Source of the DNA: Marinomonas posidonica IVIA-Po-181
Lineage (GTDB): Bacteria > Pseudomonadota > Gammaproteobacteria > Pseudomonadales > Marinomonadaceae
Direction of reading: 5' to 3'
Length of the DNA: 64,000 nt
Assembly (NCBI RefSeq): GCF_000214215.1
Contig: NC_015559.1
Coordinates: forward strand, 3,335,001 to 3,399,000
Numbering within the stretch: the first letter of the stretch is position 1; each line of letters opens with the position of its first letter. Below are positions 12,081 through 62,440 of this stretch, one piece after another. The notes below the pieces were generated by a model. The model ran no database searches, had not been told where the DNA came from, and was given only the letters and a program-made list of their open reading frames with translations. A program made the position numbers and the translations under genes.

Positions 12081-13070
12081 TTAGTAGTTACAAGTATTGT
12101 CTGACATGTAGTCATGAACCTGGATTTCACCGCTCACGATTTTGCTACGAATGTCTTGGACCTTAGCCTTCATGTCCGCTGTAATCAGGCCAGCGTTGTT
12201 ATCATCAAGCGCCCAATCTACACCACCTTCAGCCAAACCTAATACCTTTACACCGGATTTCCAGCTACCATCAGCAGAGCTCTTATAAGTATCATAAGCC
12301 GCTAGATCAACTCGCTTAACCATAGACGTTAGCATAGTACCTGGTTGTAAATGGTTTTGGTTAGAGTCAACACCGATCGCCAATTTACCTTCGTCTTTCG
12401 CCGCTTGGTAAACACCGATACCCGTACCACCAGCTGCAGCGAATACGACATCAGCGCCTTTCGAGAACTGGCTCTTAGCAAGCTCAGAACCTTTGGTTGG
12501 GTCATTGAAAGCAGCGCCCGTTGAACCTGTCATGTTTTGCAATACTGTCGCACCAGACGTTACGTATTTTACGCCCTGCTCGTAACCACAGCCAAACTTA
12601 CGGATAAGAGGAATATCCATGCCACCAACAAAACCGACAGCATCTGTTTTAGACGCCATGGCCGCCAATGCACCAACAAGGAAAGAGCCTTCATGCTCTT
12701 TAAAGACGATAGATTGAACGTTTGGCAGATCAATCACACTGTCGATGATGCTGAAATGAATTTCTGGGAAATCTTTTGCTACTTTTTCAACAGCAGAAGA
12801 CATGTTGAAACCAACAGCAACGATTGGTGAATAACCACGTTTTGCAAGACGACGTAAACCCTGTTCTACCTGAGCTTCGTTCTTCGGCTCAAATTCACGA
12901 ACTTGTACACCACTCTCAGACGTGTATTTTTTCACGCCATTGTAGACACCTTCGTTAAAAGACTTATCGAACTTACCGGCTTGGTCGTAAACCACCGCTG
13001 GATCAGCTGCTTGAGCCATGCTTGCAGAGATGGCCAACGCCGTTACTGACGCAATAAAGACACCTTTCAT
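12081..13070 (-). CDS. BMP-family nucleoside-binding periplasmic protein
   Basis: Substrate-binding protein of the basic membrane protein (PnrA/TmpC) family, 329 residues. It has a cleavable signal peptide (MKGVFIASVTALAISASMAQA, cleavage about residue 21) and no lipobox Cys, so it is probably soluble in the periplasm. VVYDQAGKFDKSFNEGVYNG and the GGMDIPLI, AAAGGTGIGVYQAA and GVDSNQN segments match purine-nucleoside binders. AGGAATAGGA precedes the start. It is first in the operon and separated from the ATPase gene by a terminator. Confidence 0.92.
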   Translation of the reverse strand: MKGVFIASVTALAISASMAQAADPAVVYDQAGKFDKSFNEGVYNGVKKYTSESGVQVREFEPKNEAQVEQGLRRLAKRGYSPIVAVGFNMSSAVEKVAKDFPEIHFSIIDSVIDLPNVQSIVFKEHEGSFLVGALAAMASKTDAVGFVGGMDIPLIRKFGCGYEQGVKYVTSGATVLQNMTGSTGAAFNDPTKGSELAKSQFSKGADVVFAAAGGTGIGVYQAAKDEGKLAIGVDSNQNHLQPGTMLTSMVKRVDLAAYDTYKSSADGSWKSGVKVLGLAEGGVDWALDDNNAGLITADMKAKVQDIRSKIVSGEIQVHDYMSDNTCNY

Positions 13071-13241: not shown

Positions 13242-13280
13242 GATATATGAGCAATTCTTGTGCCGAAACTAAACAAAAGG

Positions 13281-50138: not shown

Positions 50139-51599
50139 CTAAAAAGGATAAGGTGTAGCACTCGCTTTTACCGTCATCCATTGCCAGTGAGTATACAAAT
50201 CCCAATCTGCAGGACCACAGACTGCATTGCCATTGCCCGATGCACCACAACCACCAAATGGGTTAATGCATTCATCGTTTACCGTCTGATCGTTAATATG
50301 CAGTAAGCCAACATGCAGCTGAGAACCAATAGCCTGAGCACGAGAAAGATCGTTCGAAATCACCGCCCCAGCCAAACCGTACTCAGTATTATTCGCCAGC
50401 TCAATCGCTTCATGATCGTCTTTAAAGCTCACCAAGTTCACGACTGGACCGAAGATTTCTTCATCAAACGAGCGCATCCCTGGAGTCACACCGCTCAGCA
50501 CGGTAGGTGCATAAAATGGACCATTAAAGGTGCCACCCACTTCCAACTTAGCACCAGCAGCGACCGTATCCTTTACAATGGAATTAATTTTCAGCATCTG
50601 ACGTTGATTGATAATTGGCCCAAGTGCGACTTCCTCCGTTGCAGGATTACCAACGGGCAAATGACTGGCCTTTTCAACGATTTTTGCGGTGAGTGCTTCA
50701 GCAATGCTTTCTTGTACCAGAATGCGTCCTGATGCCATGCAAATTTGTCCTTGATGGAAATAGGCTCCCCAGGCAATATTACTGGCTGCCACATCTAGAT
50801 CCGCATCTTCCAAAACAATCAAAGAGCTTTTTCCTCCCAACTCTAAAGACACTTTTTTCAAATTTCGGCCACAGGCTTCACCCACTTTACGACCCGCTGC
50901 CGTCGACCCAGTGAACGCCACCATCTGCACTTCGGGTGCGGCACACAAGGCTTCACCCGCTTCCACACCACCAGGTAACACTTGGAATAGACCTTTTGGA
51001 AAACCGGCTTCTTCCAATGCCATGGCGAGAATAAAGCCACCTGTAACAGGGGTTTGTGGATCAGGCTTAGTGACTACAGCATTGCCTGTTGCTAGCGCTG
51101 GTGCAATAGAACGAATGGATAAAATCAGAGGAAAATTAAAGGGCGAAATAACACCAACAACACCAAGTGGTTGACGCTTTGCATAAGATTGACGATCTGG
51201 CGTAGAAGGTAAGGTTAAACCATTTGGCTCCAATGTCATATTGGCAGCCAATTGAAGAATTAGAATAGCTTCTTTGATTTCATGCATTCCTTTAGGAATG
51301 ATGCCACCCGTTTCACGGGCCACATAAAAGGCAAGATCATCAAAATTTGTTTGCAGAAATTGTGCGGCTTTATGAAATAAAGCGGCTTTGTCGCGAGGTG
51401 CCACCGCAGACCAAACCTTCTGAGCTTGGCTGGCTTGCTGACAAGCCGTATAAATATCGTCGGCACTGGCCATCGCCACTTGGCTTAATACTTCTCCAGT
51501 TGCAGGCTCTATCACCTCTTGTGTTTGCTTGGCCACAGGCCAATCACCATTAAAAAATTTACCTGACCACTTTTGTGATGCCAATACAGAATTAGACAT
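50139..51599 (-). CDS. Aromatic aldehyde dehydrogenase (benzaldehyde/vanillin/coniferyl-aldehyde type)
   Basis: 486 residues of the ALDH superfamily. Catalytic Cys287 in GQICMAS, general base Glu253 in LELGGKS, N155 in SPFNFPL, cofactor loop FTGSTAAGR. The PFNFP and HQGQICMASGRILV segments resemble XylC/benzaldehyde and vanillin dehydrogenases, giving an aromatic acid from an aldehyde with NAD(P)+. AGGAG lies nine bases before the ATG. A -24/-12 promoter lies 60 bp upstream, and a XylR/DmpR-type regulator is divergent. The exact substrate is not proven. Confidence 0.85.
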   Translation of the reverse strand: MSNSVLASQKWSGKFFNGDWPVAKQTQEVIEPATGEVLSQVAMASADDIYTACQQASQAQKVWSAVAPRDKAALFHKAAQFLQTNFDDLAFYVARETGGIIPKGMHEIKEAILILQLAANMTLEPNGLTLPSTPDRQSYAKRQPLGVVGVISPFNFPLILSIRSIAPALATGNAVVTKPDPQTPVTGGFILAMALEEAGFPKGLFQVLPGGVEAGEALCAAPEVQMVAFTGSTAAGRKVGEACGRNLKKVSLELGGKSSLIVLEDADLDVAASNIAWGAYFHQGQICMASGRILVQESIAEALTAKIVEKASHLPVGNPATEEVALGPIINQRQMLKINSIVKDTVAAGAKLEVGGTFNGPFYAPTVLSGVTPGMRSFDEEIFGPVVNLVSFKDDHEAIELANNTEYGLAGAVISNDLSRAQAIGSQLHVGLLHINDQTVNDECINPFGGCGASGNGNAVCGPADWDLYTHWQWMTVKASATPYPF

Positions 51600-51658
51600 A
51601 GGTTTGTTCTCCTGTTTATTTTTATTAGAAATCCACTGTCATGGGATTCCAATACAAG

Positions 51659-51674
51659 AGCAATCCTTATGCCG
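51659..51674 (-). promoter_or_regulatory. Sigma-54 (-24/-12) promoter for the aldehyde dehydrogenase
   Basis: Minus strand reads CGGCAT-AAGGA-TTGCT, matching TGGCAC-N5-TTGC with invariant GG and GC at the right spacing. It places transcription start about 50 bp before the gene. Confidence 0.65.
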
Positions 51675-51793
51675 CCTGCAATAGACTCTCGATAGTAATT
51701 TTCAATAACAAGCTAACACATTGAATTAAATGATATTTTAAAAAAAATAAGAAAAGAACATCGCCTTAAACACTCTATCTTCACGCTAATGGC

Positions 51794-51809
51794 TTGACGA
51801 TATCATCAA
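51794..51809. promoter_or_regulatory. Upstream activating sequence 1 (TTGA-N8-TCAA)
   Basis: TTGACGATATCATCAA, inverted ends TTGA/TCAA. About 150 bp upstream of the predicted -24/-12 start site; form and position fit XylR/DmpR enhancers. Confidence 0.6.
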
Positions 51810-51834
51810 AATCGATTCAGACTTAAAAACTAAA

Positions 51835-51850
51835 TTGATCATTTCATCAA
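51835..51850. promoter_or_regulatory. Upstream activating sequence 2 (TTGA-N8-TCAA)
   Basis: TTGATCATTTCATCAA, 41 bp (about four helical turns) from the first box. It lies just before the regulator's ribosome site, so the bound regulator could also repress its own gene. Confidence 0.6.
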
Positions 51851-51872
51851 GTGAATGAGGAAGTACAAAATA

Positions 51873-53636
51873 ATGACAAACACACATCGTATTTCACTGG
51901 CTGACATGGCGAAAGAGAGTCGTAAGGTCTTATTAAAAGGCAGTTCAAAAGAACTCAATGGACAACACTACCCTTCCTTAGATGACCTTACTGAGTGCCT
52001 CTCATTTTCGCCTGGCGATGGTCGTATCTGGTTAGAAGATCAACGCATGATATTGCTGCACAGCTCATCCTTTGGCTTACTGAGACAAGAATTAATCGAC
52101 TCCGTAGGGTTAGAAAAGTCCCGTGACATTTTAACAAGAACAGGCTATTTATCTGGCATAAGGGACGCGGATTTAATCCGCAAACGCTGGCCAGATGCAG
52201 AACCAGCCGCCATTTTCGAAGCAGGAACAAGACTGCATGGGTTAGAAGGCTTGGTGAAAGTGGAAACGGTTCATTTTGAGTTTGATACCGAAAAAGGCTT
52301 GTACCATGGTGAATTTCTTTGGCACCACAGCGCCGAAGTAGAAGAACACATTGCCGCTTACGGTCTTGGCAGTGCCCCCGTTTGCTGGATGGAATTAGGG
52401 TACGCCATAGGGTATGTATCAGGTCTGGTGGGATCGCTTGTGGTGTTCCGCGAAGTCGAATGCCAATCTATGGGGCATTCAGTTTGTCGAGTCATTGGAA
52501 AATCAGTGGAACTTTGGGACAGTGTTGAAGAGGACATTCGCTTTCTTAATGTGTCGTCGAAGAACACCAAAAAAGAACTCAAATCGGCGCCGGAATTTGA
52601 ATCCGTAACGCCAACGGAAGCATCCGAAGAAACGACTATGATTGGTGTTTCAGCTGCTTTCAGCGCCGCCAATCATGCCTTACAAAAAGTCGCTCCTACC
52701 AGTGCTACTGTGCTATTTACAGGGGAATCCGGTGCTGGCAAAGAATTGTTTGCCAGCATGTTGCATCAGTTCAGTCGCCAAACAGGTCCATTTATCGCCT
52801 TTAATTGTGCTGCGCTACCTGAAAACCTGTTGGAATCTGAGTTATTTGGGGTTGAAAAAGGGGCTTTTACAGGCGCTTCTCACAGTCGACCGGGGCGCTT
52901 CGAACGCGCCAATGGCGGCACATTATTTTTGGATGAAATTGGCACTCTCAACCTAACTGGCCAAGGTAAGTTACTGCGAGCCCTACAGGAAAAAGAGATT
53001 GAAAGGGTGGGCGGTATATCCCCCATTAAAATCAATGTTCGAGTCGTTGCTGCGACCAATATTGATCTCAAAGCCGCGGTTAAACGAGGTGAATTTCGTG
53101 AAGATTTATTTTTTCGCCTGAATGTTTTTCCAATACACCTGCCGCCGTTACGAGAAAGAAAAGCGGACATCCCCCTATTAGTCGATCACTTCTACCGCTA
53201 CTTTTGTCAGTTACATCAAAGAGCGCCAACAGGCTTCACTCAGAATGCTCGCCGTGGTTTATTTAATTACGACTTTCCTGGCAATATTCGAGAATTACAA
53301 AACTTAATTGAACGGGGGGTGATTGCTTCTGAGGAACATGAATTGATTGAATTACACCACCTATTCCGTAACGAAGCGATCCCAGATGAAGTCATTTACT
53401 CCGTTAATCAACAAGGCGCATTAAGTCAAGCACAGACGATGCAAGAGTCAGATGACGTACTCGCCCGTATATCTCAATTTGTTGCAGGAGAAACCTCATT
53501 GGATCTTGAAGCATTAGAACTCAGTTTATTGCAGCAAGCTGTTGACAGTGCAGAAGGCAATCTTTCTGAAGCTGCTCGACGAGTCGGTTTAAGTCGACCT
53601 CAATTGGCGTATCGACTTAAAAAAAGGCCCAATTAA
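51873..53636 (+). CDS. Sigma-54-dependent activator of the XylR/DmpR/PoxR family
   Basis: 587 residues. N-terminal XylR_N sensor (about 25-135) and V4R domain (140-205) bind aromatic effectors directly. AAA+ domain: Walker A GESGAGKE (284-291) and sigma-54 contact loop GAFTGA (330-335). C-terminal Fis-like helix-turn-helix [19 protein letters not shown]. The frame begins at 51855, but the ATG at 51873 follows GAGGAAG. Divergent from the aldehyde dehydrogenase and convergent with the SDR. Effector likely a phenylpropanoid, phenol or benzyl compound (inference). Confidence 0.92.
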
Positions 53637-53661: not shown

Positions 53662-54429
53662 TTAGATGTAAGTGGACGCCAAACCACCATCAATCGGAAT
53701 GTTCGCGCCACACACCCAACGCGATTGATCTGAGCATAAAAAGGCAATCACTTCTGCCACTTCATCTGAGTACGCTGGACGAATCATACGACCCGCGTCT
53801 TCTTGCACTCGCTTTTCTCCTAGCATAGAGACGAAATCGCCTAAAATTGGCGTCATTACTGGGCCAGGTGCGACACAGTTCATACGAATAGCATGATCTC
53901 TAAACCAAGCTAAAGCCTGTTGTGTCGTCCACACAATCAGGGCTTCCTTAAAATATTGGTAACAGGTTTCTTGTTCAACTGGGTGCTTGGCTAGCCATTT
54001 CGCACCATCATCATAATGCTCAATCGCAGCCAGCTCTTTGTGCTCAACCAAACGTTCCGGCCAAGCGGCACCCAAGATAGAAGCCACATTCACAACACTG
54101 GCTCCCTGACTAAACTGTGGAATCAAAGATTGCGTTAAGTGTCTCAAACCAAGGTAATTTACTCGACCAACTAGGTCTGCTTGAGAGGTGCCCGGTACAC
54201 CTGCAATATTACACAACCCATCAATTTGATCCGGTAACTGCTTGATCGCTTGATCAATTGCATCAGGATCTCCAAGGTCAATTTGGATAAAACCGTCTAG
54301 TGTCAAACTGGCCTCATTGCGATCCATTCCAATAACCTTAGCACCGTGAAATCGAGCCAGTTTTGCGACATCTGCTCCAATACCTGAAGACACTCCAGTA
54401 ACAACAATTGTTTTATTCGCTAGCATCAT
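53662..54429 (-). CDS. Short-chain dehydrogenase, coniferyl-alcohol dehydrogenase type
   Basis: 255 residues. Cofactor motif TGVSSGIG (11-18); catalytic Ser117, Tyr157 and Lys161 (CYQYFKEAL). The roughly 40-residue insert between Ser and Tyr (ERLVEHKELAAIEHYDDG...) is characteristic of the coniferyl-alcohol/3-alpha-hydroxysteroid dehydrogenase branch. It likely oxidises an aromatic alcohol to the aldehyde that the neighbouring dehydrogenase takes to the acid. A -24/-12 element lies 80 bp upstream. Confidence 0.85.
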   Translation of the reverse strand: MMLANKTIVVTGVSSGIGADVAKLARFHGAKVIGMDRNEASLTLDGFIQIDLGDPDAIDQAIKQLPDQIDGLCNIAGVPGTSQADLVGRVNYLGLRHLTQSLIPQFSQGASVVNVASILGAAWPERLVEHKELAAIEHYDDGAKWLAKHPVEQETCYQYFKEALIVWTTQQALAWFRDHAIRMNCVAPGPVMTPILGDFVSMLGEKRVQEDAGRMIRPAYSDEVAEVIAFLCSDQSRWVCGANIPIDGGLASTYI

Positions 54430-54508
54430 ATTCTCTTCCCCTTATTTTTATTATGAAATATATGTCATCAGCACTTACTCTTAAGAAAAGCACTCAGATT
54501 GAGGGAAT

Positions 54509-54525
54509 TGCATGGACTGTGCCCA
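54509..54525 (-). promoter_or_regulatory. Sigma-54 (-24/-12) promoter for the SDR
   Basis: Minus strand reads TGGGCAC-AGTCC-ATGCA: GG and GC with correct N5 spacing. Predicted start about 70 bp before the gene. The upstream activating boxes are less clear here; a half-match TTGATGATTTCA lies at 54690. Confidence 0.6.
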
Positions 54526-54706
54526 AACACAAAAGAGCCGAATTAAAAAATCATATTAAACATCTAATCCATTGATATTTATTTGTTTTATAGAAAAAAG
54601 TAGAGAAACACTAAAGGCTATATCAGCTCTTTAGCCAAAAAGCCTCTTTAATCAAATGATAAAAAAGTCATGATGAACACAAGGTAGGTTTGATGATTTC
54701 AGAGAA

Positions 54707-55303
54707 TCAAGCCTCTGGTTTTAACCTGATTTTTTGACGAATTCGGCTCAAAGCCACTGGTGTAATGCCCAGATAGGAGGCAATTTGTTGTTGCGGAATC
54801 GAATCTTTCAGGTCGGGGTAATCAACACAAAAGTCTAAATAGCGACGCTCTGCAGAATGTTCAACAAAAGCACTTTCTCGTTGATCTTTCTTGAGGAATA
54901 TTTGCTCCATAAAACGACTGTAGTAAGTTAAGAATCCTAAGTCTTGATGCATTTGTTCATAAAACGACAACCAGTCATAGGAGCTAATAACACAGTCCTG
55001 TAAAGCTTGAATACCAAACAAGGTTGGAGAATTTTCCACCATGGCCCGCGTTGAACCAATGACTTTCGGCGCTCGCACAAAGGTTTTAGTAAACTCTTTG
55101 CCTTCCTCTGAAGTGTTGACATAACGAACCAAGCCTTTATGAAGAAAGAAAATCCTTTGAGCATACTCACCCTGACGGAACAAATAGTCTCCTTTACTGA
55201 CCGCATGAAACGTCATCGGGAGAGTCAGCGATTGCCAGTTAATCTCATAGCCTTGCTCTGAAAAGTATTGCTGAAAACTGACCAATAACTGTGCTTTATC
55301 CAT
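54707..55303 (-). CDS. Crp/Fnr family transcriptional regulator
   Basis: 198 residues: cyclic-nucleotide-binding fold at 25-120 (GDYLFRQGEYAQRIFFLHKGLVRYV) and a C-terminal winged HTH (QQQIASYLGITPVALSRIRQK). The Cys set needed for an FNR Fe-S cluster is absent, and the cAMP-binding residues are not evident, so it is an unassigned member. Its 3' end overlaps the SDR upstream region. It is divergent from nothing and follows the EamA gene by 21 bases in the same direction. Confidence 0.85.
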   Translation of the reverse strand: MDKAQLLVSFQQYFSEQGYEINWQSLTLPMTFHAVSKGDYLFRQGEYAQRIFFLHKGLVRYVNTSEEGKEFTKTFVRAPKVIGSTRAMVENSPTLFGIQALQDCVISSYDWLSFYEQMHQDLGFLTYYSRFMEQIFLKKDQRESAFVEHSAERRYLDFCVDYPDLKDSIPQQQIASYLGITPVALSRIRQKIRLKPEA

Positions 55304-55324
55304 TTTGCCTACCTATTCCTTATA

Positions 55325-56260
55325 TTAGGTCACTAATTTAGCCATTTTGTTCTGATAATCAATCATATACAACGCAATCAACAATATACCTACACCAGCA
55401 GCAAAGCCAACATTCAACAACAAACTCCAATTCAATGTCGTCAGCGCCACATAGCAAGCCACCCAGACAGGTATCGTGTATGTGGCAGCCAATAAACGAT
55501 TCGCGCCTAAGCGGATCACTAGCTTTTGCTGCAACATGAAGGTAAACAAGGTAGTAAAGATGGTTAAATATAAGGTATTAGACCAAAAACCCAGTTCCAG
55601 CCATTCAACTTGCTCCAAATGCCCCCATAAGAGAGTGATGGGCAACAGCCACAGAGAACCAAACAGCATAATCATAAAAGCCCCTTGCAAGGCACCAATA
55701 GAACGTCCCCACTTCTGAACCAAGACCACGTGTAACGCCAACAAAACACAAGATGCTAAAAAGACATAATCGCCTTTATTCCATACCAACATGCCCGTAT
55801 CTTGCGTGGAAAACAGCACCATCATTGCTCCAATCGATCCTAATAAGAAGCCCAATACTTTTCCCCACGAAGTGGATTCTTTTAACCACACTCGCGCCAC
55901 GGCAACGCCCATTAAAGGCACTAGAGTATAAAGAACCGATGTATGCAGTGGCGTGGTCGATTCCAGTGCAACAAACATCCCAATAAAAAAACCAACTAAG
56001 GCACCACTGATCAAAAAGTAATGCAACAATCTCTGCGGAGAGGAAAAAAGGCCTTTGAGTGTCCAAGTTGATGCATCGCACTGTGACCCACGCGTTCGGT
56101 AATTATTCAGAAAAATTACCGCCGTCATGAGCCCTAAAGCCACGATAAAACGAAGAAAAGATGTGGCAATTGGGCTCGCATAAACCGCCATATTGCCTGA
56201 CACGACAAAAGAAGAAGCCATCAAAATAGCCCAAACGAAAAGCAGCACAAAAGGGTTCAT
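55325..56260 (-). CDS. EamA/DMT family inner-membrane transporter
   Basis: 311 residues with about ten hydrophobic segments in two EamA repeats (residues 1-145 and 160-305). Short sequence AILMASSFVVSGNMA in helix 1 and SVLYTLVPLMGVAVARVWLKE are typical. Probable exporter of amino acids, metabolites or drugs. Its ATG overlaps the end of the N-acetyltransferase gene by four bases, so they may serve one pathway. Confidence 0.85.
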   Translation of the reverse strand: MNPFVLLFVWAILMASSFVVSGNMAVYASPIATSFLRFIVALGLMTAVIFLNNYRTRGSQCDASTWTLKGLFSSPQRLLHYFLISGALVGFFIGMFVALESTTPLHTSVLYTLVPLMGVAVARVWLKESTSWGKVLGFLLGSIGAMMVLFSTQDTGMLVWNKGDYVFLASCVLLALHVVLVQKWGRSIGALQGAFMIMLFGSLWLLPITLLWGHLEQVEWLELGFWSNTLYLTIFTTLFTFMLQQKLVIRLGANRLLAATYTIPVWVACYVALTTLNWSLLLNVGFAAGVGILLIALYMIDYQNKMAKLVT

Positions 56261-57084
56261 TCTGCCTCTCCCTCTAATGCAAGTAACCTTGGTGCCACAA
56301 AACGGTCAAATAAATGCTGAGCAATGACAGGTTCGACATCCACATTAAACACCTGCAACAAGGTGGAATGGAGGTCTTCTGCTGAACAGATAAAACGCTC
56401 TTCTTCATGACCATTCTGACGGGTGAAAAGCACATGATTGCGTATACCAACCGTGCGATTGAAATCTTTAATGCTGGCAACCAGGTTATTCACAAACGCT
56501 GCCTTAGGGTATTTGGATGAAAAGAAATTCCCTATCACACAATCTTCATCTGTGTATTCAGCCAAATCAAAACGATACAAGGTATGAAAGCTGCCAGACC
56601 TTTCTATCTGCAAATCATACTCACCGCCCTGCTCCACAATTCGATAGTTTTCATGACCGATTTTCTGCTCCAAACCTGATTGCAGCAGCAAGGGGGAAAT
56701 AGGACAATCTGCGCCAAAGCCAACATCAAGGAGATACGCCTTTCCATCAATATTGACCAGCGTAACGCGATGAGTACGGGGACGATCTATTTCTTGTCCA
56801 TTTAATACCCTAGCCATCACCAAACGTACCGAATAACCAAGGCTTTTCAATAACTCAAATGCTAACTTATTGTGTTCAAAGCAATACCCACCTAACCCAT
56901 GGACCACAATTTTTTCATAAACATTGGTTAGATCAAGAGACACCTCTTCTCCGAGCAGTACCGCCAAACTATTAAAACTGTACTTCGCTATGTGTGCCGC
57001 CTGCAATTGCCCCACAAATGCCAGTGACAATTCCTCAGGTGTCGATAGCTTGAGGTCAGTTAAATAAGCGTGTAAATCAGACAT
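56257..57084 (-). CDS. nat: Arylamine N-acetyltransferase
   Basis: Transfers acetyl from acetyl-CoA to arylamines or hydrazines. 275 residues with the catalytic triad Cys68 (GGYCFEHN), His105 (RTHRVTLV) and Asp120 (YLLDVGFGAD). The frame extends upstream to 57108, but the ATG at 57084 follows AGAGG. Coupled by a four-base overlap to the transporter downstream, so export of an acetylated product is conceivable. Confidence 0.92.
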   Translation of the reverse strand: MSDLHAYLTDLKLSTPEELSLAFVGQLQAAHIAKYSFNSLAVLLGEEVSLDLTNVYEKIVVHGLGGYCFEHNKLAFELLKSLGYSVRLVMARVLNGQEIDRPRTHRVTLVNIDGKAYLLDVGFGADCPISPLLLQSGLEQKIGHENYRIVEQGGEYDLQIERSGSFHTLYRFDLAEYTDEDCVIGNFFSSKYPKAAFVNNLVASIKDFNRTVGIRNHVLFTRQNGHEEERFICSAEDLHSTLLQVFNVDVEPVIAQHLFDRFVAPRLLALEGEAE

Positions 57085-57156
57085 CCGTATTTTTCCTCTG
57101 GGTTTCACAATAGTCAGCAGAGTACATTGAAATACAGTTAGAAGAATTAACCTAGG

Positions 57157-59854: not shown

Positions 59855-60829
59855 TTAACATCGCCACTCTAAGGTTTGAGAAGGCTGCTCTCCAAACAAT
59901 TGTTTATAATCTTTGGCAAATTGACTCAGATGCCAAAATCCCCACTGCGCGGCAATTTGGCTAACGTTAATGCTATTCGACGTCGTATCAAAACTGGCCT
60001 GTACAAGGGCACGCCGTACCCCATTTAAACGAGTAAAACGCAGATATTGAATTGGACTGACGTCTAAAATACTTTCAAAACTGTATTGCAATGTGCGCCG
60101 ACTCACATTGGCGACTTCACACAATTGCGTTACGGTTACTGGCTCATCCATATGCCCATCTAAGAAATCTCGAGCACAATCCACTACTTTCTTACGATGA
60201 TGATAACTTTGTGTTTTCGCCGGCTGAGGCGTTTCCACTTTCAGTACTTCCAGTAACGCCATCAAAACAATGTCTTTTTGCAAGCGTGAAGGTGTCTCAT
60301 TTTGGGTGACGGATAACATGCGCTCTAGTAAAAACCTCACATCATTTAAGGTTTTTTCTGGCACGCCTAAACGGCCATATTCCGTGAGCTCTTTCCAGTT
60401 TAAATCCACACCATGAATGTTAGCGGTTGCCATCAGGTTCGATTGATCCACCACCAAACCAAATAAATCGTAATCTGCTGGGGTCGATAAATGAAACTCG
60501 CCACCGCCAGGACGACACATGATGGTGTCTGGACGTATGGTCAAACCATTGATTTTACTAGGCTCTTGCCCTGCTAACGGGATACCAAGCCAGACGGAAT
60601 CCGGCCACACAACACACTTTTGCTGTAACGCTTGGCTAGTGTGTTCACAAAACACCTGTAAGCCGTCAAAAGGCAACTCCACAATGCGGCCATAAAAACT
60701 ACCACGACTGGTTTGATCATATTCTTGCTGCCAGTTCGTCAGATTACTGGCATGCAAATCTGCATCATGCGCTTCTGAAACACGAACCGCAGAGCCCCAT
60801 TTTGGTGCGCTTTCGGTCATATTTAACAT
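59855..60829 (-). CDS. AraC family regulator, EutR-like
   Basis: 324 residues. C-terminal double HTH (about 215-324: FLDGHMDEPVTVTQLCEVANVSRRTLQYSFE, then a second HTH with INVSQIAAQWGFWHLSQFAKDY). N-terminal sensor has the RPGGGEFHLSTPADYDLFGL segment shared with the EutR branch. Divergent from eutB, with a 10-bp direct repeat in between. Expected inducers are ethanolamine and cobalamin. GAGG lies five bases before the ATG. Confidence 0.85.
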   Translation of the reverse strand: MLNMTESAPKWGSAVRVSEAHDADLHASNLTNWQQEYDQTSRGSFYGRIVELPFDGLQVFCEHTSQALQQKCVVWPDSVWLGIPLAGQEPSKINGLTIRPDTIMCRPGGGEFHLSTPADYDLFGLVVDQSNLMATANIHGVDLNWKELTEYGRLGVPEKTLNDVRFLLERMLSVTQNETPSRLQKDIVLMALLEVLKVETPQPAKTQSYHHRKKVVDCARDFLDGHMDEPVTVTQLCEVANVSRRTLQYSFESILDVSPIQYLRFTRLNGVRRALVQASFDTTSNSINVSQIAAQWGFWHLSQFAKDYKQLFGEQPSQTLEWRC

Positions 60830-60917: not shown

Positions 60918-61018
60918 TCTGACAAATTGCATAAAGTAGGTATCAGCAAAACTTATGCCTTAATTCGCAATCCATCGCCTTAACGCATTAACACTTGAGT
61001 TTATTAAGAGCTGGTTTT

Positions 61019-62440
61019 ATGAGTCATCACAACAAGACCTTCCAATTTCGTCACGCCATAGGCGAACGCACCTTTGGCTTCGTTGACCTTGCTGAACTGA
61101 TGGCAAAGGCCACTCCTGCTCGCTCTGGTGATCGTTTAGCTGGCGTGGCAGCGGAAAGTGCGGAAGAGCGTGCTATCGCACAAATGACTTTAGCCGATGT
61201 CCCTCTCACTCTCTTTTTAGAACAACTCCTAGTCCCCTATGAAGAAGATGAAATCACTCGCTTAATCATAGATGAACACGATAAAACAGCCTTTGCCCCC
61301 ATTGCTCACTTAACCGTTGGCGGATTTCGTGATTGGTTATTGAGTGATCTGGCCAGTCCAGAAATACTTCAACAAATTCGAGCTGGCGTTACCCCTGAAA
61401 TGGCAGCGGCGGTTAGTAAAATTATGCGCAACCAAGACCTCATTTTGGTCGCCAAAAAATGTCATATCAGAACAGCTTTTCGTAACACCATAGGCCTTCC
61501 TGGGCACTTATCAACGCGCTTACAGCCCAATCATCCGACCGATGACCTCACTGGCATTGCGGCTAGTATGTTAGACGGTTTGCTGTACGCCAATGGCGAT
61601 GCGGTCATCGGCATAAACCCTGCCACCGATAATGTTCAGCAAGCCAGTCGTTTGATTAAAATGATGGACGACGTTATTCAGCACTACGACATACCAACTC
61701 AATCTTGCGTTCTGACTCACGTCACCAACACCATCGAATGCATAGAACAAGGTGCACCCGTTGATCTAGTATTTCAATCGATTGGTGGCACGCAAGCCAC
61801 TAATGATAGCTTTGGCTTTAATCTAGCGACGTTGGCTGAAGCTCAAGAGGCTGCCTTATCCTTGAACCGAGGCACGGTTGGCAACAATGTGATGTATTTT
61901 GAAACAGGTCAAGGCAGTGCTCTGTCCGCCAATGCAAACCACGGACTCGACCAACAAACCTGCGAAGTAAGAGCCTACGCCGTAGCCCGCAAATTTGACC
62001 CACTGTTGGTCAACACTGTAGTCGGCTTCATCGGACCAGAATATTTGTACGACGGTAAAGAAATCACTCGCGCGGGTCTCGAAGATCATTTTTGTGGAAA
62101 GCTACTCGGCCTGCCAATGGGTTGCGATGTTTGTTATACCAATCACGCAGAAGCTGACCAGAACGACATGGACAACTTGCTGACACTATTAGGCGTGGCC
62201 GGTTGCACCTTTGTCATGGGCATTCCCGGTTCAGACGACATCATGCTGAACTACCAAACGACCTCATTTCACGATGCACTTTATGCACGACGTGCCTTGG
62301 GTTTAAAACCGGCACCGGAATTTGACGCTTGGTTAGCCAAAATGGACATTTTTAAAAATAACCAGCAGTTCACCCTAAACCAGCAACTGCCTGACGCGTT
62401 TCAACCTTCTTTACAGCGCTTAATTGGAGGTCGGTCATGA
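61019..62440 (+). CDS. eutB: Ethanolamine ammonia-lyase large subunit
   Basis: Adenosylcobalamin-dependent enzyme that splits ethanolamine into acetaldehyde and ammonia. 473 residues; the TIM-barrel segments LSTRLQPNHPTDDLTGIAAS and VMYFETGQGSALSANANHGLDQQTCE carry substrate and B12-contact residues. The ATG at 61019 is chosen; the longer frame begins with TTG. EutC follows with a four-base overlap. No reactivase (EutA) or shell proteins are seen in the window. Confidence 0.95.
   Translation: MSHHNKTFQFRHAIGERTFGFVDLAELMAKATPARSGDRLAGVAAESAEERAIAQMTLADVPLTLFLEQLLVPYEEDEITRLIIDEHDKTAFAPIAHLTVGGFRDWLLSDLASPEILQQIRAGVTPEMAAAVSKIMRNQDLILVAKKCHIRTAFRNTIGLPGHLSTRLQPNHPTDDLTGIAASMLDGLLYANGDAVIGINPATDNVQQASRLIKMMDDVIQHYDIPTQSCVLTHVTNTIECIEQGAPVDLVFQSIGGTQATNDSFGFNLATLAEAQEAALSLNRGTVGNNVMYFETGQGSALSANANHGLDQQTCEVRAYAVARKFDPLLVNTVVGFIGPEYLYDGKEITRAGLEDHFCGKLLGLPMGCDVCYTNHAEADQNDMDNLLTLLGVAGCTFVMGIPGSDDIMLNYQTTSFHDALYARRALGLKPAPEFDAWLAKMDIFKNNQQFTLNQQLPDAFQPSLQRLIGGRS

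Follow-up and report, generated by a model that had tools for sequence, protein, structure and literature searches.

A conserved XylR/DmpR-type arrangement of paired boxes and a -24/-12 promoter probably controls an aromatic aldehyde dehydrogenase gene, with a matching unit at the neighbouring SDR gene, in Marinomonas

Which regulator switches on the aldehyde dehydrogenase gene at this locus, and through which DNA elements? We analysed a stretch of 64,000 nucleotides (the window) lying inside a genome of the genus Marinomonas that consists of one contig of 3.9 Mb. The dehydrogenase gene and the gene of a sigma-54 activator diverge from 273 bp of intergenic DNA, and an SDR gene is the next gene after the activator:

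50139-51599, minus strand: aromatic aldehyde dehydrogenase gene, with relatives named benzaldehyde dehydrogenase
51873-53636, plus strand: activator gene, encoding XylR_N, V4R, sigma-54 AAA+ (GAFTGA) and HTH_8 domains
53662-54429, minus strand: SDR gene, over the cut-off of the coniferyl-alcohol dehydrogenase subfamily

The activator start codon was placed at 51873, with a ribosome site at 51857-51863. An alternative start at 51855 was rejected because no ribosome site precedes it and the nearest relative has no ATG there. The closest activator, with 93% identity, is that of M. aquiplantarum. After the SDR gene, genes for a cyclic-nucleotide-binding regulator, an EamA-like transporter and an arylamine N-acetyltransferase-like protein occupy 54707-57108, and they follow the SDR gene in all 12 Marinomonas loci of this gene order.

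The translated activator scored over the Pfam cut-offs for XylR_N, V4R, the sigma-54 activator domain, its lid and HTH_8, and it contains GAFTGA. This combination of XylR_N plus V4R, a GAFTGA-bearing AAA+ domain and a Fis-type HTH is that of the XylR/DmpR subfamily, and the protein is the sole XylR_N protein of the genome (E 0.001). Against the MobR phenol regulator model NF041906 it scored 496 bits, below the cut-off of 999 bits. Among solved chains, DmpR/CapR came nearest across most of the protein and PoxR in the sensor part, and by sequence comparison the activator is nearest to PoxR/MopR/DmpR. The residues by which DmpR holds phenol and zinc are described in the accessible part of PMC7264223; the equivalents of DmpR His100 and Trp128 and the Cys-Glu-Cys-Cys zinc set are all kept in the activator (for the zinc cysteines, three numbers printed in that paper are off by two relative to our alignment). 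The putative ligand is an aromatic, probably phenolic, compound.

An earlier note on this DNA had proposed a minus-strand sigma-54 promoter at 51659-51674, two TTGA-N8-TCAA boxes 41 bp apart at about -150 and -195, and control of the dehydrogenase by the divergent V4R activator. The elements read as follows:

51659-51674, minus strand: -24/-12 (sigma-54) promoter of the aldehyde dehydrogenase gene, CGGCATAAGGATTGCT, conserved and with correct GG/GC spacing
51714-51726: weak IHF-like site, TAACACATTGAAT, with one mismatch, 55 bp from the first base of the promoter
51794-51809: box 1, TTGACGATATCATCAA, promoter-proximal putative upstream activating site, exact TTGA-N8-TCAA
51835-51850: box 2, TTGATCATTTCATCAA, promoter-distal putative upstream activating site, exact TTGA-N8-TCAA

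Read from 51674 to 51659 on the minus strand, CGGCATAAGGATTGCT is exactly CGGCAT-N5-TTGCT, with 3 mismatches to TGGCACG-N4-TTGCW, and it predicts a dehydrogenase start at about 51648, 12 bp past the -12 GC (51661-51660). Relative to that start the centres of the boxes, which are 41 bp apart, fall at about -153 and -194, close to the positions first proposed; 22 bp separate the end of box 2 from the activator ATG. The region has the features of an XylR/DmpR-type promoter, namely a -24/-12 element with the invariant GG and GC and paired inverted repeats at the right distance, such sites being described in the accessible parts of PMC7264223 and PMC3040749 as lying about 100-200 bp upstream.

A single box is no evidence on its own, since exact boxes occur in the 64-kb window at chance level (3 against 2.3 expected); the third of them, at 54242-54257, lies inside the SDR gene and was taken as a chance match. 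The combination is a different matter. When the 273-bp region was dinucleotide-shuffled 20000 times, one or more exact boxes arose in 527 shuffles, a -24/-12 match (at most 3 mismatches) in 294 and an exact box pair 10-100 bp apart in 4, and the layout of promoter plus box pair arose in none, whether the boxes were exact or were allowed one mismatch. The exact pair, with a gap of 15-35 bp, is found at a single place in the 3.9-Mb genome (0 for the reversed-pattern control). When one mismatch to the box consensus was allowed, the genome yielded 87 matches (49 forward, 38 reverse) and the reversed-pattern controls 13 and 11; the three matches outside the window that we inspected were all inside ORFs, with no convincing -24/-12 match near any of them. 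The strict sigma-54 consensus with at most 2 mismatches gave 7 sites in the window against 12.9 expected, and neither the dehydrogenase nor the SDR promoter was on that list.

We then used related loci as a measure of conservation. Among 48 genomes of the genus, 17 encode a full-length relative of the activator, sensor included, with 19 relatives in total. The box scan covered 17 of the 19 full-length relatives together with M. rhodophyticola (18 rows), the relatives G044:C4 and G024:C11 being used in the tree only. All 18 loci had a -24/-12 match with both GG and GC correctly placed; in 15 it lay 204-221 bp before the activator start. A box pair 41-43 bp apart (at most 2 mismatches in each box) was present at 14. 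The spacing was 30 bp at L029 and 34 bp at L028 and L030, and at L031, a more distant Marinomonas relative (44% identity) with other neighbours, the scan found a promoter match and no boxes. Where the dehydrogenase gene is linked, the window included, the whole layout was found at 12 of 12 loci with at most 2 mismatches per box and at 10 of 12 with at most one; shuffles of these 12 loci reproduced it in 0 or 1 of 1000 each.

Conservation also picked out the elements independently of their motifs. In an alignment of 10 loci (G024 and the near-duplicates G038 and G006 were left out), the four most conserved non-overlapping 16-bp windows were 51611-51626, in the dehydrogenase leader, followed by 51835-51850, 51794-51809 and 51659-51674, the last three coinciding to the base with the elements of the earlier note. 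Random triples of windows were equally conserved in 29 of 100000 draws. The distance from promoter to box 1 (first base to first base) was 134-137 bp at 11 of the 12 loci and 126 bp, about one helical turn shorter, in G040, a value shared by G020, where another gene is the neighbour; the distance from promoter to ATG ranged from 42 to 109 bp at the same 12 loci. An enhancer-promoter distance that is held while leader lengths drift is the geometry of sigma-54 activation. The proposal that a divergent V4R activator acts through paired upstream sites on a sigma-54 promoter of the dehydrogenase gene is supported at the sequence level by the domains of the protein, the presence of rpoN and of an IHF-alpha gene, and this conserved layout of fixed spacing.

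Among the related loci, L056 (in G020) keeps the promoter with boxes and has a transporter-binding-protein lookalike in place of the dehydrogenase. L058 (in G024) also keeps the promoter with boxes, and a zinc-alcohol-dehydrogenase-like ORF stands at the place of the SDR gene.

The DNA between boxes and promoter may also carry an IHF site. At 10 of 14 Marinomonas loci, a perfect match to the IHF consensus is found 54-55 bp from the dehydrogenase promoter. In the window this distance is occupied by a form with one mismatch, and a perfect match is missing there from G005, G039 and G040. By conservation the IHF-like site of the window, as placed in the dehydrogenase-linked alignment, ranked 129 of 258. 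An IHF-alpha gene, over its cut-off, is present in the genome, as is an rpoN gene. Such a site is not universal in known systems, being present at Pu and reported as absent at mph in the accessible part of PMC3063778.

A conserved repeat of the layout, in which the boxes are weaker, lies upstream of the SDR gene. This matching unit, at 54430-54705, was absent from the earlier note and is new here:

54509-54524, minus strand: -24/-12 promoter of the SDR gene, GGGCACAGTCCATGCA, predicted start at about 54498
54565-54577, minus strand: exact IHF consensus, TATCAATGGATTA, between the SDR promoter and its boxes
54648-54663: proximal degenerate SDR box, minus-strand sequence TTTATCATTTGATTAA, 2 mismatches in the half-sites
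54690-54705: distal degenerate SDR box, minus-strand sequence TCTCTGAAATCATCAA, 3 mismatches in the half-sites, spaced 42 bp from the proximal box

A promoter (at most 4 mismatches) and a proximal box (at most 2) stood 133-139 bp apart at 12 of 14 loci, and the distal box followed exactly 42 bp further on, with at most 2 mismatches, at 8 of those 12; the window, G005, G001 and G040 need at least 3. In G044 and G043 the SDR gene is divergent from the activator gene and has a promoter match about 355 bp before it. When 10 of the 12 loci were aligned, leaving out the near-duplicates G038 and G006, conservation upstream of the SDR gene fell in the order leader, promoter, the two boxes and then the IHF site, whose window (54566-54581) ranked fifth; random triples matched the three SDR elements in 129 of 100000 draws. 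The SDR leader is about 55 bp longer in G034, G018 and G006, with the promoter-to-box distance still 137-138 bp. As a sequence match the SDR IHF site is weak by itself, since the exact consensus occurs 9 times in the window against 4.5 expected.

Both genes share a further short element, an A-rich leader:

51616-51626, minus strand: A-rich leader AATAAAAATAA, immediately preceding the ribosome site of the dehydrogenase gene and inside the most conserved window
54442-54452, minus strand: second copy of AATAAAAATAA, before the SDR ribosome site

These are the only 2 exact copies in the window (0.16 expected), and none of 100 shuffles contained two copies. Among the relatives, all 12 of 12 dehydrogenase leaders contain AATAAAAATAA without change, as do 3 of 12 SDR leaders, the other SDR leaders having A-rich variants. 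The element is similar to the A-rich Crc/Hfq motif known from Pseudomonas and fits the AAnAAnAA form used for Crc targets there, as given in the accessible part of PMC3003667; a stricter A-rich pattern had no match in the window. A role for these leaders in catabolite repression is a guess, which we think less likely than not. With GGAG within 4 bases, the genome has 5 copies of AATAAAAATAA, one of them at this locus; the SDR copy, which has GGGG, is not counted. The four other sites precede a FadL-type-porin lookalike, a fatty-acid-oxidation-enzyme lookalike, a small secreted protein and no clear gene.

The boxes also bear on the activator's own expression. A sequence reading of the intergenic region gives a candidate sigma-70 promoter:

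51794-51823, plus strand: candidate sigma-70 promoter of the activator gene, TTGACG-N18-CAGACT

Its putative -35, TTGACG, is part of box 1, its start would fall at about 51830, and box 2 comes just after; among the conserved windows of the dehydrogenase-linked alignment, 51815-51830 ranks fifth. The suggestion that the inner box overlaps the start region of the activator gene needs correcting: the box nearer that gene is clear of its start codon and ribosome site. The boxes do lie over this likely promoter. Autoregulation of the activator is plausible. Because active XylR represses its own gene, according to the accessible part of PMC3469447, and because the boxes lie over the candidate activator promoter, negative self-control would be the likelier form; for self-repression as such we see roughly even odds.

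We propose that an XylR/DmpR-type enhancer drives the aromatic aldehyde dehydrogenase gene from a sigma-54 promoter, accompanied by a matching SDR unit, and we give this reading, drawn from sequence, a probability of about 0.82. Within this reading we infer activator binding, sigma-54 dependence, the ligand and the action of IHF. The divergent V4R/AAA+ activator would bind an aromatic (probably phenolic) ligand and, once ligand-bound, would occupy both boxes, which lie about 153 and 194 bp upstream. With the DNA from boxes to promoter probably bent by IHF, ATP hydrolysis by the AAA+ domain would open the sigma-54 polymerase at the -24/-12 element, leading to production of the aromatic aldehyde dehydrogenase. 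The second unit would drive the SDR gene across the activator gene; given its identical geometry, alcohol and aldehyde oxidation would be switched together. This offers a concrete and testable switch for aromatic alcohol/aldehyde oxidation in a marine bacterium.

The boxes could instead serve mainly the expression of the activator, with box 1 supplying the -35 and box 2 acting as an autorepressor site, and with the dehydrogenase promoter activated by a different enhancer-binding protein or from solution. The near-consensus -35 in box 1 and the conserved stretch 18 bp on fit this account, as do the other sigma-54 activators in the genome (12 matches, E at most 0.001). We nevertheless consider it very unlikely, because each box is conserved in both of its halves, the distance from the boxes to the sigma-54 promoter is fixed while leader lengths vary, and boxes of the same geometry occur at the SDR gene, where there is no activator promoter. 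Coincidence of boxes and a -24/-12 match in AT-rich intergenic DNA is contradicted by the shuffles, by the uniqueness of the pair in the genome and by conservation to the base; the chance frequency of single boxes in the window and the absence of the dehydrogenase promoter from the strict two-mismatch list speak for it, and we regard it as extremely improbable.

A further alternative leaves the mechanism unchanged and concerns the substrates. The dehydrogenase's relatives together with the SDR suggest an alcohol-to-aldehyde-to-acid pair for an aromatic compound. Substrates and inducer may be of simple benzyl type (benzyl/hydroxybenzyl alcohol and aldehyde) rather than coniferyl, which we rate a little short of an even chance. 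The closest named relatives of the dehydrogenase (among the best 120 of 7583) are benzaldehyde dehydrogenases and its closest solved relatives are 4-hydroxybenzaldehyde dehydrogenases; in addition, G024 has no SDR gene within about 5 kb and a zinc-alcohol-dehydrogenase lookalike ORF beside its activator gene. Against simple benzyl substrates, the SDR scored 402.4 bits for the coniferyl-alcohol dehydrogenase subfamily NF009092 (cut-off 242), and a small residue at DmpR-132 in the activator clade might admit a bulkier ligand. The nearest solved chain to the SDR is a 3-alpha-hydroxysteroid dehydrogenase (E 5e-21).

That clade emerged from a midpoint-rooted tree of 31 activators, 19 from Marinomonas and 12 from elsewhere in the order. 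The window protein falls within a group of 19 rows with support of 100/100; the depth of the tree is unsure because of the midpoint root and several long-branch outside rows. In all 19 group rows the residue at DmpR-113 is Phe, that at 122 is Tyr and that at 132 is Ala, Ser, Thr or Cys, whereas among the 12 outside rows Phe at 113 occurs in one (G112), Tyr at 122 in none and a small residue at 132 in one (G290); PoxR has Tyr at the DmpR-122 position. Within about 5 kb of the 19 group activators we found an SDR gene in 17 cases and a dehydrogenase gene in 16. Of 293 genomes searched, 28 had a match, and 12 loci were fetched; in three genomes of another family of the order, G190, G232 and G251, the dehydrogenase and SDR genes follow each other and are divergent from the activator gene. 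The same promoter type, CGGCACAGCCCTTGCT or GGGCACAGCGCTTGCT, lies upstream in all three, with a box (at most one mismatch) in the expected place in one of the three and a pair in none.

These observations admit a bolder reading, which we think unlikely: that sensing lignin-type phenylpropanoid alcohols is the dedicated task of the V4R clade (19 of the 31 tree rows, support 100/100), whose pocket is altered and which controls two sigma-54 units flanking its own gene; that the shared A-rich leader adds catabolite repression; and that the alcohol-aldehyde operon seen in the other family was split in Marinomonas, each half keeping or gaining its own enhancer of the same geometry. In the literature covered, which lies outside most subscription journals, we found no V4R/sigma-54 regulator tied to a coniferyl alcohol dehydrogenase. 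With its changed pocket, the clade may be a sensor of lignin-derived phenols and could be of use in biosensors.

How does the proposed enhancer-driven dehydrogenase unit compare with known systems? The model cases are XylR with Pu, Ps and Pr of the TOL plasmid of Pseudomonas putida (PMC3900584, PMC3469447); the likenesses and differences given here follow the accessible parts of the papers cited. Pu has two upstream sites, an IHF site between them and the promoter, and a -12/-24 promoter (PMC3900584), and at Ps the activator gene is divergent from one target, with XylR down-regulating its own promoter Pr (PMC3469447). XylR differs in having Tyr where DmpR and the present activator have the phenol-contact His (PMC7264223) and in controlling other enzymes, and self-repression is putative here. 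HbpR of Pseudomonas azelaica is also a divergent XylR/DmpR-type activator with two target promoters, each with upstream sites (PMC3040749); its substrates are others, and in Marinomonas the targets flank the activator gene, one divergent and one convergent. The phenol hydroxylase promoters of MphR, MopR, DmpR and PoxR resemble the present one in the divergent regulator, the paired inverted repeats, the A/T-rich spacer and the -12/-24 element (PMC3063778, PMC7264223), an intergenic arrangement described as nearly identical among several phenol clusters (PMC3063778), and their sensors share the His, the Trp and the zinc ligands. They differ in their target, phenol hydroxylase as opposed to aldehyde dehydrogenase plus SDR, and in the pocket positions DmpR-113, 122 and 132. 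Since the layout equals that of Pu and the phenol clusters, and an activator with two promoters is known in HbpR, the locus clearly exemplifies, in conserved form, a design already known, and is not a new kind of switch. What is less usual is the pair of single-gene units flanking the activator gene, together with the altered pocket.

Elsewhere in the window, a -24/-12 match, GGCATAAGTTTTGCT (60945-60959, minus strand), is flanked by an AraC-type regulator gene (59855-60829) and, divergent from it, an ethanolamine ammonia-lyase large subunit lookalike (60995-62440), and another, CGGCACAAGAATTGCT (13250-13265, minus strand), lies upstream of a substrate-binding-lipoprotein lookalike gene (12081-13070).
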